Shown piece by piece: positions 30,503 through 37,311 of a stretch of DNA of 37,311 bases. The number at the start of each line of letters is the position of its first letter. The first letter of the stretch is position 1. Under the pieces are notes generated by a model, which ran no database searches, was not told the origin of the DNA, and saw only the letters and a list, made by a program, of their open reading frames with translations. A program made the position numbers and the translations under genes. Source of the DNA: a virus; the IMG/VR virus record IMGVR_UViG_3300037487_001237, positions 1 through 37,311 of that record, one strand, 5' to 3'.

Positions 30503-31423
30503 TCAATTCTGAGGTCCAGCGACCTGTTGGTACTTGCGGAGAAGCGTGCGGGCGATAATGACGTTGAGTGCGGTGTTTCGCGCCCCCGTATCCCCGTCGT
30601 TGAATCCGTTCGCCACGAGCCACGCCTTGACTTGTTCGATCAGCACGCGGGTAGCGTCCATCTCCATGATGTTGTCGGTCAAGACGATGCGGCTTTTGGT
30701 TTCGTCCCCGATGAACGCCTGCGCTCGACCGAACTTCGAAGCGTTGAGCCATGTGGTCGAATCACAAGAGGTGCACCAACGGCAACGACGCATGATCGCA
30801 GCGCGGTCGCAACCGAACAGGTGAATGTCGATTGATGGCTTGCGTTGTTTCGCCATCGCCGCCTGTCGCTCCACGCTGCGGGCGAGGTCGCTGACCCCGT
30901 GCTTGCGAAGCTCAAGCGGGGCAATGCCAACGTAGTCGCTGAACTCGATCAGGCGGTCAAACCCGCTCTGCCCGTCCTCAAGGTGCCAGACGTTCACGAG
31001 GCGATGATCGGGAAGTTGATCGCGCAGCCGACGGCGCAATGACCACGCCGCTTCGGGGTCGAGGATCTTCTGACAATCAACCTCGACGACCACGCCGCGA
31101 TAGTTCGACTCCTTCACGAACTCAACGATGCGGTCCTGCCATGCAGTCAGGAAACCGAGATCCCACGATCCTTTGCCGAAGTTCGTGTCCGAGCCTTTGC
31201 GCCCCCACATGAGCGTGAAAATGCCAGAGTCGAGCATGGTGGTGCGAAACAGCGCCTCGTAGATCGAAGGGGCGGGCGCGGTCGAAGCCGACGCCGCTCC
31301 CTTCAGTTTGAAATCGGGCGCGATGTAGCGATAGACCGAGAACAGGGCGTGCTTCACGCCGACGAAATGCTGGATGGCCCTCGCTTCGCGGAGTTTCTCT
31401 ACGCCTGCGAAATAGACCTTCAC
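30503..31423 (-). CDS. dpdA: DpdA-like DNA guanine transglycosylase (TGT family paralog)
   Basis: 306 aa from GTG 31423, which overlaps the queC stop (GTGA) and follows AAGGAGGCAAGGC. TGT-type enzymes swap guanine for a 7-deazaguanine base; DpdA acts on DNA. Visible features: MLDSGIF (D65), comparable to the DSGGFQ of TGTs, the strand VVVEVDCQKILDP (111-123), DYVGIAPLELRKHG (173-186), IDIHLFGCD (208-216) and RCRWCTSCDSTTW (223-235), in which the Asp before STTW could be the nucleophile. The close Cys224/227/230 may bind zinc. Genes for all steps to preQ0 lie directly upstream, so preQ0 is the likely substrate. Confidence 0.8.
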   Translation of the reverse strand: MKVYFAGVEKLREARAIQHFVGVKHALFSVYRYIAPDFKLKGAASASTAPAPSIYEALFRTTMLDSGIFTLMWGRKGSDTNFGKGSWDLGFLTAWQDRIVEFVKESNYRGVVVEVDCQKILDPEAAWSLRRRLRDQLPDHRLVNVWHLEDGQSGFDRLIEFSDYVGIAPLELRKHGVSDLARSVERQAAMAKQRKPSIDIHLFGCDRAAIMRRCRWCTSCDSTTWLNASKFGRAQAFIGDETKSRIVLTDNIMEMDATRVLIEQVKAWLVANGFNDGDTGARNTALNVIIARTLLRKYQQVAGPQN

Positions 31424-32124
31424 GCCTTGCCTCCTTGTTTCCACGCCGCAAAACCCGCAGACCGTTTCTTGCAGGCGGGGCAAGCGCCGCAGCCATAGCC
31501 CCATTCGTGAAACGGTTGCTCGCCGCCTTCGTAGCAGGTTCGGGTGTGATTGACGACGAGGTTCGTGACGTTGAGCGCCGACGCTTTCGCCCAAATCGCG
31601 GCCTTGCTAAGGGCGACCAGCGGCGCGTGGATTTCGAGGCACGGCATGTCGAGCCCGATCCTCAGAGCTTCCTCCATTGCGCGAACGAACTGCATCGAGC
31701 AGTCGGGGTAGGCGTCGGTCTTGCTCGTGGCTCGATGAGCGTCCAACCCGATGACCACGTTCGGGATGTTGAGCTTCTTCGCCATAGCGCCGGCCAACGC
31801 GAGGAACAGGATGTTCCTGCCGGGCACGAACGAAGTTGGCAAGTTGTCGGCACGAACTCCGAAGGCTTCGGAGTTCTTCACGAGCGAGGAGTCCCTCAAC
31901 TGCGCGAGGGCGTCACAGTCGAGCATCGTCCACGGCACCTCCGCTTCGCGACAGACCCGTTGAACGGCTCGCTGTTCCATCGACAAAGACCGTTGCCCGT
32001 AATTGACGAACAGGGCAAGGCAGTTCCACCTTTGATCCTTGTCCGCCCACAGCATCGCCGTCGTGGAGTCCTGACCGCCGGAAAGCAACACGAGTGCGTT
32101 CAACGATGGGCCGTATGCACGCAT
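31420..32124 (-). CDS. queC: 7-cyano-7-deazaguanine synthase QueC
   Basis: 234 aa. QueC converts 7-carboxy-7-deazaguanine to preQ0 using ATP and ammonia. The PP-loop LLSGGQDSTT (SGGxDS at 15-20), NYGQRSLSME, and the C-terminal four-cysteine zinc site (C197, then C212-x2-C215-x2-C218 in GYGCGACPACKK) are all present. ATG 32124 has GGAG upstream and overlaps the folE gene by 25 bases. No QueF or amidotransferase gene was found, so preQ0 seems to be the end product of this pathway. Confidence 0.92.
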   Translation of the reverse strand: MRAYGPSLNALVLLSGGQDSTTAMLWADKDQRWNCLALFVNYGQRSLSMEQRAVQRVCREAEVPWTMLDCDALAQLRDSSLVKNSEAFGVRADNLPTSFVPGRNILFLALAGAMAKKLNIPNVVIGLDAHRATSKTDAYPDCSMQFVRAMEEALRIGLDMPCLEIHAPLVALSKAAIWAKASALNVTNLVVNHTRTCYEGGEQPFHEWGYGCGACPACKKRSAGFAAWKQGGKA

Positions 32125-32657
32125 GACAGGAACTCCTTCCTCGTGTCCTCTTGATCCTTGAACAGGCCGCGAAGGGCGCTCGTGACCATCACGCTGTTCT
32201 GTTTCTCCACGCCTCGCGCCGTCATGCAAAAGTGTTGCGCCTCGAACATGACCGCGCAGCCTTTCGGGGCGAGGTGTTCCATGATCGAGTCGGCCACCTG
32301 CGCCGTGAGGCGCTCCTGCACCTGAAGGCGACGGGCGAAACATTCGACGAGGCGGGCGAGCTTGCTGATCCCGACCACCTTCTCCGTCGGAATGTAGCCA
32401 ACATGAGCCCGTCCAAAAAACGGGAGCATGTGATGTTCGCAGGTTGAATAGAACTCGATGTCCCGCAGCAGCACCATTTCGTCACAGTCAACGATGAATT
32501 GTTTGGAGAGGATCTGCGCGGGGTTTTGCAGGTAACCCGCGTAGATTTTCGCCCACGTTCCCACGACCCGCCTCGGCGTTTCCGCCAACCCTTCGCGAGT
32601 CGAATCTTCACCGATGGCTTCGATCAGGTTTCGGACAATCGTTTCGTTCGGCGTCAT
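32100..32657 (-). CDS. folE: GTP cyclohydrolase I FolE
   Basis: 185 aa. FolE opens GTP to 7,8-dihydroneopterin triphosphate, the first step towards preQ0. Conserved features: STCEHHMLPFFG (zinc ligands C73 and H76), KVVGISKLARLVECFARRLQ, QERLTAQVADSI, and QHFCMTARGV with the third zinc ligand C144. The length is near normal for a bacterial enzyme without a long N-terminal extension. ATG 32657 overlaps the queE stop (ATGA). It lies between queE and queC. Confidence 0.93.
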   Translation of the reverse strand: MTPNETIVRNLIEAIGEDSTREGLAETPRRVVGTWAKIYAGYLQNPAQILSKQFIVDCDEMVLLRDIEFYSTCEHHMLPFFGRAHVGYIPTEKVVGISKLARLVECFARRLQVQERLTAQVADSIMEHLAPKGCAVMFEAQHFCMTARGVEKQNSVMVTSALRGLFKDQEDTRKEFLSCVHTAHR

Positions 32658-33313
32658 CTCATCCCCGCGATCTTGTGCGTCTGGAGCGATAGTCGCCAGC
32701 CGCGATAATTCATCACGGCGCTGGCGGCGAATCGAAAGATCGACTCTCGCAAGAGTGGGTCGTCGCTCCAAATCGGCTGTAGGTATCGCTCGCGAACATG
32801 ACCCTTGAACCTCGACAGGTCTTGCCCTTGATGCAAGAGCTTGAGTTCGCTGGCGACGCCATCCCACTCCTCGACGGGATCGCCGTTCTTCTGCTTCGGA
32901 GAGCATGTGACCCACGCGCCTTCGTTGAGCAGCGCGAGTATCGCCTTCTCGTTGGAGCCGTTCGTCTCGACCTGAATCGAACGCCTCCCGCTGTCATAGA
33001 TGGCACGCACGAGCGGGATGATGTCGTGGATCGTCGGCTCGCCGCCCGTGATTACAACGTGCTCGTTCCATTCGAAGAACATGCTCATGGCGAGAACGAT
33101 CTCGTCGGTCGTGAGGCGTGACTCGATCTTCGTGAAGTCGGTATCACACCACGCGCATTTGAAGTTGCACCCGGCGAGTCGGATGAACGTGGCGGGCGTT
33201 CCGGCGAAATGACCTTCGCCCTGTACGCTCGCGAAGATTTCGACGATGGGCAGCCGCTTCGGATCGTCTACGACCGCCTCGGCTTCGACGGTCGGTTCAT
33301 GTTCGTCAGTCAC
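32654..33313 (-). CDS. queE: 7-carboxy-7-deazaguanine synthase QueE (radical SAM)
   Basis: 219 aa from GTG 33313, which overlaps queD by 8 bases. The enzyme rearranges carboxy-tetrahydropterin to 7-carboxy-7-deazaguanine. The SVQGEGHFAGTPATFIRLAG segment leads to CNFKCAWC, with the CX3CX2C radical-SAM cluster ligands C49, C53 and C56, followed by DTDFT. Further on are VVITGGEPTIHD and VETNGSNEKA, which bind SAM, and SPKQK. Its order in the operon, between queD and folE, is shared with many preQ0 clusters. Confidence 0.93.
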   Translation of the reverse strand: MTDEHEPTVEAEAVVDDPKRLPIVEIFASVQGEGHFAGTPATFIRLAGCNFKCAWCDTDFTKIESRLTTDEIVLAMSMFFEWNEHVVITGGEPTIHDIIPLVRAIYDSGRRSIQVETNGSNEKAILALLNEGAWVTCSPKQKNGDPVEEWDGVASELKLLHQGQDLSRFKGHVRERYLQPIWSDDPLLRESIFRFAASAVMNYRGWRLSLQTHKIAGMR

Positions 33314-33677
33314 GGGACCACACCGCGAGGTTGGTGTCGTTTTCGCTGACCGCGACGCGCTCGACATGAGCGCAGGGGCCACCGGATTCGCGGGCAGGCA
33401 TCTCGCCATTGACCTCGCTGGCGATCAAGTACGCGAGGTTCTCCGCCGTCGCCGGGATTCCGCCCATCGTCTCGTTGAGGTCGCGGTGGTCGTGGCGCTT
33501 CACGATGGCGCTGATCGCCGCGAAGTCCACGACCATGCCGTTCGGGTCGAGGCTGTCGGCGCAGACCGTCACGGCGATGTCGTAGTTGTGGCCGTGAGGC
33601 CGACGGCAGGGCGACTCGTAAGGGAGCTTCAGGCAATGCGCTGCTGCAATACTGATTCGCTTCGTAACCGTGAACAT
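33306..33677 (-). CDS. queD: 6-carboxy-tetrahydropterin synthase QueD
   Basis: 123 aa from ATG 33677 behind AAGGAGGAAGCC. QueD turns dihydroneopterin triphosphate into 6-carboxy-5,6,7,8-tetrahydropterin. Visible are ISIAAAHCLKLPY (His14), SPCRRPHGHNY (Cys24 and the metal ligands His28 and His30), MVVDFAAISAIVKRHDHRDL (the D-H-R-D-L-N-E motif) and the C-terminal VAVSEN. First gene of the late/modification block, downstream of a control region. Confidence 0.92.
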   Translation of the reverse strand: MFTVTKRISIAAAHCLKLPYESPCRRPHGHNYDIAVTVCADSLDPNGMVVDFAAISAIVKRHDHRDLNETMGGIPATAENLAYLIASEVNGEMPARESGGPCAHVERVAVSENDTNLAVWSRD

Positions 33678-33736
33678 GGCTTCCTCCTTTGCCAGCCCCG
33701 AGGATAGCCTGTCGAGCGCCGGGGCCGCAACCCGTA

Positions 33737-33784
33737 TTCTTGCTCTTGTTATTGTTCTTGTTATTGTTCTTGTTCTTGTTCTTT
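33737..33784. repeat. TTGTT-rich low-complexity tract
   Basis: Repeats of the units TTGTTATTGTTC and TTGTTC make up this stretch, in sharp contrast to the GC-rich surroundings. On the other strand it is AAC/AAT-rich. Such a tract melts easily; it may be part of a promoter or an origin. Confidence 0.7.
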
Positions 33785-33813
33785 AATTCGAGATGAATTC
33801 GCAAACGTTCAAT

Positions 33814-33852
33814 GAAGTCTTTCGTGAAGTCTTTCGTGAAGTCTTTAAGTCT
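33814..33852. repeat. 12-bp direct repeats, iteron-like
   Basis: GAAGTCTTTCGT occurs at 33814-33825 and 33826-33837, then a partial third copy (GAAGTCTTTA) and a further AAGTCT. The tandem layout beside an AT-rich tract looks like iterons or binding sites for a regulator, for example one of the two small HTH proteins. Confidence 0.6.
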
Positions 33853-36286: not shown

Positions 36287-37311
36287 TTACAGGTTCGTGC
36301 CCTCGCTCGACTCATTCACGGCCTCGACGATCTCAACGGCACCTTCGGCGCGGGCGAGAATGTCGCTCGCGGCCTGAAGCTCCTCGCCGCTGGCGCTGTC
36401 GGCGTCGTCCTTCAAGGAACGAGCCACCGCGACTGCCGTCCGGTTCGACTCGATCATTCTCTCCAGCACGCGGAAGTCGCTCATCGGCAGACCGTCCACG
36501 CCCGCGAAGCGCCGCAGCAGTTCGACCAGCAGCGAGGTCGAGGACGCCTCGGCGAGAACGGTGTCGCGCACGGCCTCCTCCGCGATGGCGGTGCAGATGG
36601 CGTCGTTGCGGCTCTTGAAGATGATGGCCTCGGGATTCGACAACAGCAGGTGCTCGGCGATCTGCTCGAAATCCGCATCGCCATCGAACACGTTGTCAAC
36701 GTTATCGAGGACATCGCTCAACGACTCGCCCACTATCCACCCTTCGTCCTCAAGGTGCGAGGCGATCTCGTCGTTTTTGATGAGGTTCAGCGCCTCGTTC
36801 GCGTCCTTCGACACGAAGAAGTCGTTGTCAGTGAGGTACTCGGCGATCTTGTCGTCTTCGATGCTGCTCAGGGCGTCGTCCTCGTCGTCGTACACAACGC
36901 TGCCGCGATCAACGATGTATTTCTTGATGGTACTGTCGTCGAGACAGTCGAGAATTTCTTCGTCGTCGCCGAACACTTTGTATCCGTTGTCTCGCAACTG
37001 TTCGATCATGTCGTCTATGCTCTGCTCCTCGACGCCCTCGCCCTTCTCCTCAAGCGCATCGCGCAGAGATTCGACACAGCACGTTTCCGCGAGCACGCTG
37101 ACGAGTTCGTGGTAATTGACTTCGCCGCGCATGGCGTGGGCGAAGTTCGCGATCCCTTCTTTCCCGATTGCGGTTTTGACGCGATTGATCGCCAACTCAT
37201 AGAACAGCGCCGGGTCTGCCGGGAAGCTCTCGATGCTCGCCTTCTCGATGCCCGCCTTCTTGAGCAGCGCCTCGTCCTCGTCGCTGCTGAGGTTGCTCAG
37301 GTAGTCGATGA
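36287..37311 (-). CDS. Acidic repeat-containing protein, C-terminal part
   Basis: This is the 3' portion of the gene whose start lies at 494; the frame is open from 37311 to the stop at 36287. The middle holds four successive units of about 27 residues that follow the same pattern: an acidic start, I..YL or I..HL, D, then VxxDxxDAL and an I or V before the next acid. Examples are IKKYIVDRGSVVYDDEDDAL and IAEYLTDNDFFVSKDANEAL. After the repeats comes a helical tail with LLVELLRRFAGVDGL and an Ala/Glu-rich end. The repeats look like a helix-strand solenoid, possibly a protein-binding scaffold or a DNA mimic given the acidity, but that is inference. An internal TTG at 37195 could be read as a start only because this copy has TTG where the left copy has TGG. 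Confidence 0.8.
   Translation of the reverse strand, partial: IDYLSNLSSDEDEALLKKAGIEKASIESFPADPALFYELAINRVKTAIGKEGIANFAHAMRGEVNYHELVSVLAETCCVESLRDALEEKGEGVEEQSIDDMIEQLRDNGYKVFGDDEEILDCLDDSTIKKYIVDRGSVVYDDEDDALSSIEDDKIAEYLTDNDFFVSKDANEALNLIKNDEIASHLEDEGWIVGESLSDVLDNVDNVFDGDADFEQIAEHLLLSNPEAIIFKSRNDAICTAIAEEAVRDTVLAEASSTSLLVELLRRFAGVDGLPMSDFRVLERMIESNRTAVAVARSLKDDADSASGEELQAASDILARAEGAVEIVEAVNESSEGTNL
36966..37311. repeat. Right copy of 346-bp terminal direct repeat
   Basis: Second copy of bases 1-346. Both differences from the left copy change an amino acid of the leftward gene that crosses the junction: Trp in the left copy versus Leu here at codon 89, and Phe versus Leu here at codon 123. 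An exact k-mer overlap at contig ends would be identical, so the mismatches suggest strain variation in the source population or read error. Confidence 0.95.

Follow-up and report, generated by a model that had tools for sequence, protein, structure and literature searches.

Modified guanine in a phage's own DNA is a known means of acting against host defences. Mass spectrometry found dPreQ0, the deoxynucleoside of 7-cyano-7-deazaguanine (preQ0), at about 28% of G in Rosebush and about 32% of G in CAjan, and deletion of the gene for the DNA guanine transglycosylase, dpdA, abolished dPreQ0 in CAjan (PMC6884629). Here we analyzed positions 1 to 37,311 of the IMG/VR virus record IMGVR_UViG_3300037487_001237 (one strand, 5' to 3'; this whole stretch of 37,311 nt is called the window), in which queD, queE, folE, queC and a dpdA-like gene form one head-to-tail run on the minus strand, with adjacent genes overlapping by 4-25 bases. 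An original prediction, made from the letters of the window, had described this overlapping run as a cassette for preQ0 synthesis and DNA transglycosylation; all five open reading frames were found where it had placed them, and gene content, family membership, fold and conserved catalytic motifs support its reading. We consider it highly probable that the run is a post-replicative DNA modification cassette that yields dPreQ0, with a neighbouring ParB-like protein probably assisting.

Judged by profile searches, the family matches of the cassette genes are far above chance, and all four synthesis genes matched their families with the expected motifs. QueC (family match E = 6.6e-56) scored 167 bits against TIGR00364, whose equivalog cut-off is 150.3 bits, and FolE also exceeded the curated cut-off of its NCBIfam model (2.4e-77). 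The matches of QueD to TIGR03367 and of QueE to TIGR04322 (3.4e-27) were under the curated cut-offs of these models; the His, Cys and HGH motif was read directly in QueD, and QueE contains the CX3CX2C motif of radical S-adenosylmethionine (SAM) enzymes, with matches to the radical SAM family (2.4e-11) and to the QueE-like family phrog_2076 (1.4e-37). In QueC, the SGGQDS motif is accompanied by four cysteines, and the first spacer of this zinc site measures 14 residues in an alignment of the window protein with those of phages CAjan, K4PH164 and S0112, compared with 8 residues in E. coli. Since other phage QueCs have the same spacing, the 14-residue spacer is no argument against the function of the window QueC. 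The pathway from GTP to preQ0 is complete by family match, in agreement with the claim that this gene set would be sufficient.

The dpdA-like call had a thin sequence basis and was then borne out by a match to phrog_887, the family that CAjan DpdA matches at 8e-96, and by a predicted tRNA-guanine transglycosylase (TGT) fold. The window protein had no Pfam or NCBIfam match, including none to the Pfam TGT family. When its profile was compared using hhalign, it matched the DpdAs of phi47:1 (1.3e-7), CAjan (1e-5) and the Rosebush type (6e-4), with alignment of the H-x2-G and DS blocks, and gave no significant match to E. coli TGT, HVTV-1 gp69 or a SE1Kor neighbour. An assignment to DpdA2 of the nt-1 type was rejected (hhalign E = 0.42; the nt-1 protein belongs to phrog_10773). 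Searching PDB sequences with the profiles of DpdA and of protein X, described below, returned no matches, and fold comparison was therefore used. The AlphaFold2 model of DpdA, built from a 22-row alignment (predicted local distance difference test score, pLDDT, of 86.6), has the TGT fold along the whole protein, with a Z-score of 16.4 and 258 residues superimposing on Zymomonas mobilis TGT with an RMSD of 3.8 Å; among the 50 best structural matches were only TGTs plus the TGT-like Cap10.

Invariant across the 22 rows are DSG (D64), CDST (D220) and the His of IHL[FL]G (H200), where the numbering of D64 and D220 begins at the Lys that follows the start codon. Both Asp motifs align with those of the phi47:1 and Mufasa8 DpdAs, and the second also with that of CAjan; by motif and position, rather than by superposed coordinates, the two residues would be the counterparts of TGT D102 and D280, which bind the substrate and act as the nucleophile, respectively. 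H200 aligns with KLHAFG of CAjan and, through CAjan rather than the 9g protein itself, may be equivalent to H196 of 9g, a conserved His that is absent from DpdA2. The original prediction had named structural comparison as a way to see whether the protein lacks a transglycosylase active site; the model has the TGT fold, and the sequence contains the active-site Asp motifs. On these comparisons, the window protein belongs to the same superfamily of phage DpdAs as the CAjan enzyme.

In the proposed mechanism, FolE, QueD, QueE and QueC would convert GTP via 6-carboxytetrahydropterin (CPH4) and 7-carboxy-7-deazaguanine (CDG) to preQ0. After replication, DpdA would remove guanine from phage DNA using the nucleophilic Asp of CDSTTW and put in preQ0, giving dPreQ0, and the ParB-like protein would probably help, for instance by aiding DpdA in engaging DNA or by acting as its nucleotide-driven partner. 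Genome-wide domain searches of the apparently complete genome found no QueF, class-II glutamine amidotransferase (GATase_6), ArcS-type domain or YhhQ preQ0 transporter, so that the absence of QueF, a Gat-type amidotransferase and ArcS noted in the original prediction held; the sole QueF match was a sub-threshold cross-match within FolE. A Pfam scan of ten further window genes gave no candidate tailoring enzyme. Since no amidotransferase, reductase or ArcS was detected and the gene content is that of phages with dPreQ0, we infer that dPreQ0 is the best prediction for the inserted base, as we infer the chemistry, the role of the ParB-like protein and protection of the DNA. Plasmids with low-level dPreQ0 were not protected from EcoRI, which deoxyarchaeosine (dG+) did block (PMC6884629), so the degree of protection is not to be assumed.

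A search with the window DpdA identified relatives on 31 viral contigs, on 17 contigs in bacterial genomes and in one isolated phage (Faecalibacterium phage Roos). Most of these carry queD, queE and folE without QueC, and when a QueC profile was run against the 31 viral records, the sole carriers were a near-identical copy of the window phage and locus L031. Where QueC is missing, a protein of about 110 residues, here called X, ends where dpdA starts: four loci (L006, L007, L010 and L018) have the order queD-queE-folE-X-dpdA-parB, and the order in the window is identical, with QueC in the slot of X. When the DpdAs were clustered at 80% identity and flanking sequence was required, 22 clusters had X only, 3 had QueC only (the window phage among these), 2 had neither and none had both (Fisher p = 0.0034); a hand count of the clusters with complete queD/queE/folE gave 21 with X, 3 with QueC, and none with both or neither. 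Within this divergent DpdA branch, QueC and the QueD-fold protein X are either-or, which is new. Faecalibacterium phage Roos (L033:7989-9204) and the Clostridia contigs L044, L045 and L046 have the pair of X and dpdA and lack queD, queE and folE within the part inspected, so that X is tied to DpdA even more than to the synthesis genes.

The model of X (pLDDT 93.6) is a T-fold, with E. coli QueD (PDB 4ntk) as its nearest structure (Foldseek E = 3.9e-6). The three zinc-binding His of QueD are retained in all aligned rows but one, and the QueD catalytic Cys is lost. Also retained is the C-terminal Glu, the residue that holds the bicyclic substrate in place in T-fold enzymes. X belongs to phrog_17812, a family listed as of unknown function that also occurs in Cellulophaga phage phiST and its relatives, Chryseobacterium phage MA9V-3 and Synechococcus phage BUCT-ZZ01; its genes there adjoin QueE, QueD or FolE, with no QueC annotated nearby. 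In BUCT-ZZ01 (L034:2605-8372), queE, a guanine phosphoribosyltransferase-like gene, queD, folE and X stand together, possibly as a nucleotide-level route to a 7-deazaguanine base. With CDG as the expected product of QueE and no QueC present, X probably acts on CDG, and it may decarboxylate CDG to 7-deazaguanine; a rival view is that hosts supply QueC and that X has some other role. Cui et al. reportedly predicted a CDG decarboxylase, DpdL, in 2023. X may be this DpdL.

One branch of transglycosylases would in this way have two end products: QueC would yield preQ0, and X would probably yield 7-deazaguanine or some other derivative of CDG. In the DpdA tree, QueC carriers fall in three places, and in the QueC tree, the Prevotella QueC groups with Rosebush-type QueCs. 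Both trees rejected the placement of every QueC carrier in one clade (approximately unbiased test, p-AU 0.0014 for DpdA and 0.00015 for QueC), and neither rejected a clade of the window and the Cruoricaptor prophage (p-AU 0.18 and 0.33, respectively); hence at least two switches between QueC and X, and not three, are claimed, with the exact placement of the window DpdA unsure on its long branch. We tentatively propose, with slightly less confidence than for an even chance, that QueC and the zinc-dependent QueD-fold protein of phrog_17812 (by probable decarboxylation of CDG to 7-deazaguanine) are interchangeable and that at least two single-gene swaps altered the DNA mark. Several positions that are near-invariant in X-type DpdAs differ in the window and Cruoricaptor proteins and not in the Prevotella protein; convergence at these positions is not claimed because the window and Cruoricaptor proteins may share ancestry.

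Other features of these loci were seen in passing. The QueCs at L031:2127-2792 and at L047:8783-9436 (Cruoricaptor ignavus DSM 25479) score above the equivalog cut-off and have lost the zinc cysteines, with GDEDNNGSK where GCGxCxxC is expected; they would be either zinc-independent or changed in function. At L026:687-1349, a Vut_1 gene (YhhQ-type, preQ0 transporter family; E = 1.7e-45) directly follows dpdA. The dpdA gene is in two pieces at L048:6994-7873 in a Treponema metagenome-assembled genome and at L051/L052 in Thermoguttaceae metagenome-assembled genomes, by frameshift, decay or insertion.

Several points weigh against dPreQ0 as the product of the window cassette. The nearest relatives of its DpdA have only about 37% identity to it, and its own branch in the tree is long, at 2.65 changes per column. 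Most members of its group work without a phage QueC, so that its base preference may differ from that of CAjan DpdA. An unrecognised tailoring enzyme could hide among the several window open reading frames without a family match. Scans for close relatives with the window terminase and QueC brought up only the near-identical contig (99.9% identity over 11.9 kb), so no test of nonsynonymous to synonymous substitution rates (dN/dS) is possible and selection on the cassette is not measurable. The DNA might be modified with a final base other than preQ0, such as 7-amido-7-deazaguanine (ADG, the QueC intermediate), CDG, the product of an unrecognised enzyme, or a mixture. Most relatives lack QueC, so the branch is evidently able to work with something besides preQ0 made by the phage; several genes of the window have no assignment; and the ADG deoxynucleoside, dADG, occurs in varying amounts in Campylobacter phages CP220 and CPt10 and in 7-11, MED16 and nt-1 (PMC8306585; PMC6884629). 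We nonetheless regard such a base as unlikely, given that a motif-intact QueC fills the exact slot of the relatives' different protein, which is sensible only if the QueC product is wanted, and that phages of matching gene content have dPreQ0 with little or no dADG (PMC6884629).

It is very improbable that the genes instead raise queuosine in host tRNA, with the TGT-like protein acting on tRNA rather than phage DNA. Some phages that have preQ0 genes and lack DpdA may work in this way (PMC6884629), and the fold is that of a tRNA-guanine transglycosylase; yet the window protein groups with the phage DpdAs of phrog_887 and not, by Pfam or by hhalign to E. coli TGT, with the tRNA enzymes. DNA modification in CAjan depends on its DpdA, a member of that PHROG, and the recurrent ParB-like neighbours presumably bind DNA. 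The structural proximity of Cap10 (PDB 9ntn; Z-score 16.0) raises the idea of a protein target, to which QueC and the TGT-like protein would attach a deazaguanine in the manner of Cap9 and Cap10 from type IV cyclic oligonucleotide-based antiphage signalling systems (CBASS); we give this idea hardly any credence. PADLOC returned no match for the TGT-like protein and matched QueC to its plain QueC model only, and the window QueC lies above the equivalog cut-off with the zinc site of phage QueCs retained. The cassette would make its own CDG from GTP, in a phage setting beside a ParB-like gene, and no cGAS/DncV-like nucleotidyltransferase (CD-NTase) was present among the assigned window genes, in which no search aimed at this enzyme was made.

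Insertion of preQ0 by DpdA remains our preferred reading, and the ParB-like gene, which the original prediction left out, is probably the sixth member of the cassette. Of 50 related loci, 32 have a ParB-like gene no more than 1.2 kb from dpdA. The window protein falls in phrog_723, the family also of the ParB gene that adjoins dpdA in phage Godines, and ParB-like genes adjoin quite different DpdAs in Godines, Mufasa8 and phi47:1. A functional link between the ParB-like gene and dpdA is likely. Bacterial DpdA needs the ATPase DpdB, and by analogy the ParB-like protein could play a DpdB-like part for the phage DpdA. PADLOC gave no defence-system match for DpdA or for the window ParB-like protein. 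The ParB-like neighbours at L003:4980-5534 and L009:7073-7651 matched its type II methyltransferase model (4.5e-14 and 6.2e-8), probably via a common ParB-like N-terminal domain.

The window (62% G+C) encodes a terminase, portal, major head protein and tape measure, which identify a tailed phage. A direct repeat of 346 bases at its ends (1-346 and 36966-37311; 2 mismatches, 99.4% match) makes it most likely that the genome is complete at about 36,965 bases; the collection gives no completeness estimate. An AAGGAGG ribosome-binding motif lies just upstream of the GTG start of dpdA. Just upstream of queD, positions 33725-33850 contain repeats rich in purines (AACAAGAACAATAAC...) and a GACTTCACGAAA-like unit in three copies, in a stretch that would be a likely place for a promoter or regulatory site.

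Table 1. Predicted genes of the modification cassette, in order of transcription (window positions).
Gene and predicted product	Position	Strand	Remarks
queD, 6-carboxytetrahydropterin synthase, 123 aa	33306..33677	-	First of run; Pfam PTPS E 4.8e-25; TIGR03367 2.4e-20
queE, CDG synthase, radical SAM, GTG start	32654..33313	-	phrog_2076; TIGR04322; overlap with queD 8 bases
folE, GTP cyclohydrolase I, 185 aa	32100..32657	-	Pfam 4.8e-74; NCBIfam; ATGA overlap with queE
queC, preQ0 synthase, 234 aa	31420..32124	-	TIGR00364 3.7e-49; SGGQDS; C-x14-CxxCxxC
dpdA, DNA guanine transglycosylase, 306 aa, GTG start	30503..31423	-	phrog_887 1.9e-19; TGT fold; DSG, VEVD, IHLFG, CDSTTW motifs
ParB-like protein, 219 aa	29834..30493	-	9 bases beyond dpdA; phrog_723 4.6e-12

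These results add a 37-kb phage, compact and apparently complete, whose six-gene modification cassette includes a DpdA remote from the ones already studied. The natural single-gene swap should change the DNA mark and makes the substrate choice of DpdA directly testable, with one enzyme branch and two predicted bases; cultured carriers of the alternatives are Veillonella montpellierensis DSM 17217 and Cruoricaptor ignavus DSM 25479. The family phrog_17812 gains a candidate role.

By its predicted genes, the window cassette has the dPreQ0-type content, with FolE, QueD, QueE, QueC and DpdA present and QueF, Gat and ArcS not found. Its closest DpdA relatives (33-37% identity) are in QueC-less phages and prophages of IMG/VR (L006, L009 and L016 are examples, as is L042 from Veillonella montpellierensis), whose cassettes differ in having the QueD-fold protein of phrog_17812 directly before dpdA. 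In Cellulophaga phage phiST, a cluster of QueD, QueE, FolE, MazG and gp040 resembles these cassettes in that gp040, like X, belongs to phrog_17812 and QueC is not annotated; unlike the window phage, phiST is larger, has its own DNA polymerase and has no clear homologue of the window DpdA (gp042 resembles it weakly). CAjan, an Escherichia phage of Seuratvirus, is like the window in its phrog_887 DpdA, its C-x14-CxxCxxC QueC and its lack of an amidotransferase, and its dPreQ0 has been measured, whereas its 7-deazaguanine genes are scattered among others over about 6 kb, its DpdA is distant and it has a putative preQ0 transporter. In the Rosebush-type cassette, represented by Godines of the same genus, the order ParB-DpdA-QueC-QueD-QueE-FolE differs from that of the window, the DpdA is barely alignable beyond the catalytic block, and the ParB has no BLASTP similarity to the window protein, being linked to it through phrog_723 only. 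dPreQ0 has been measured in Rosebush (PMC6884629). The two cassettes nevertheless have six gene families in common, and both are compact overlapping runs close to the large terminase gene.

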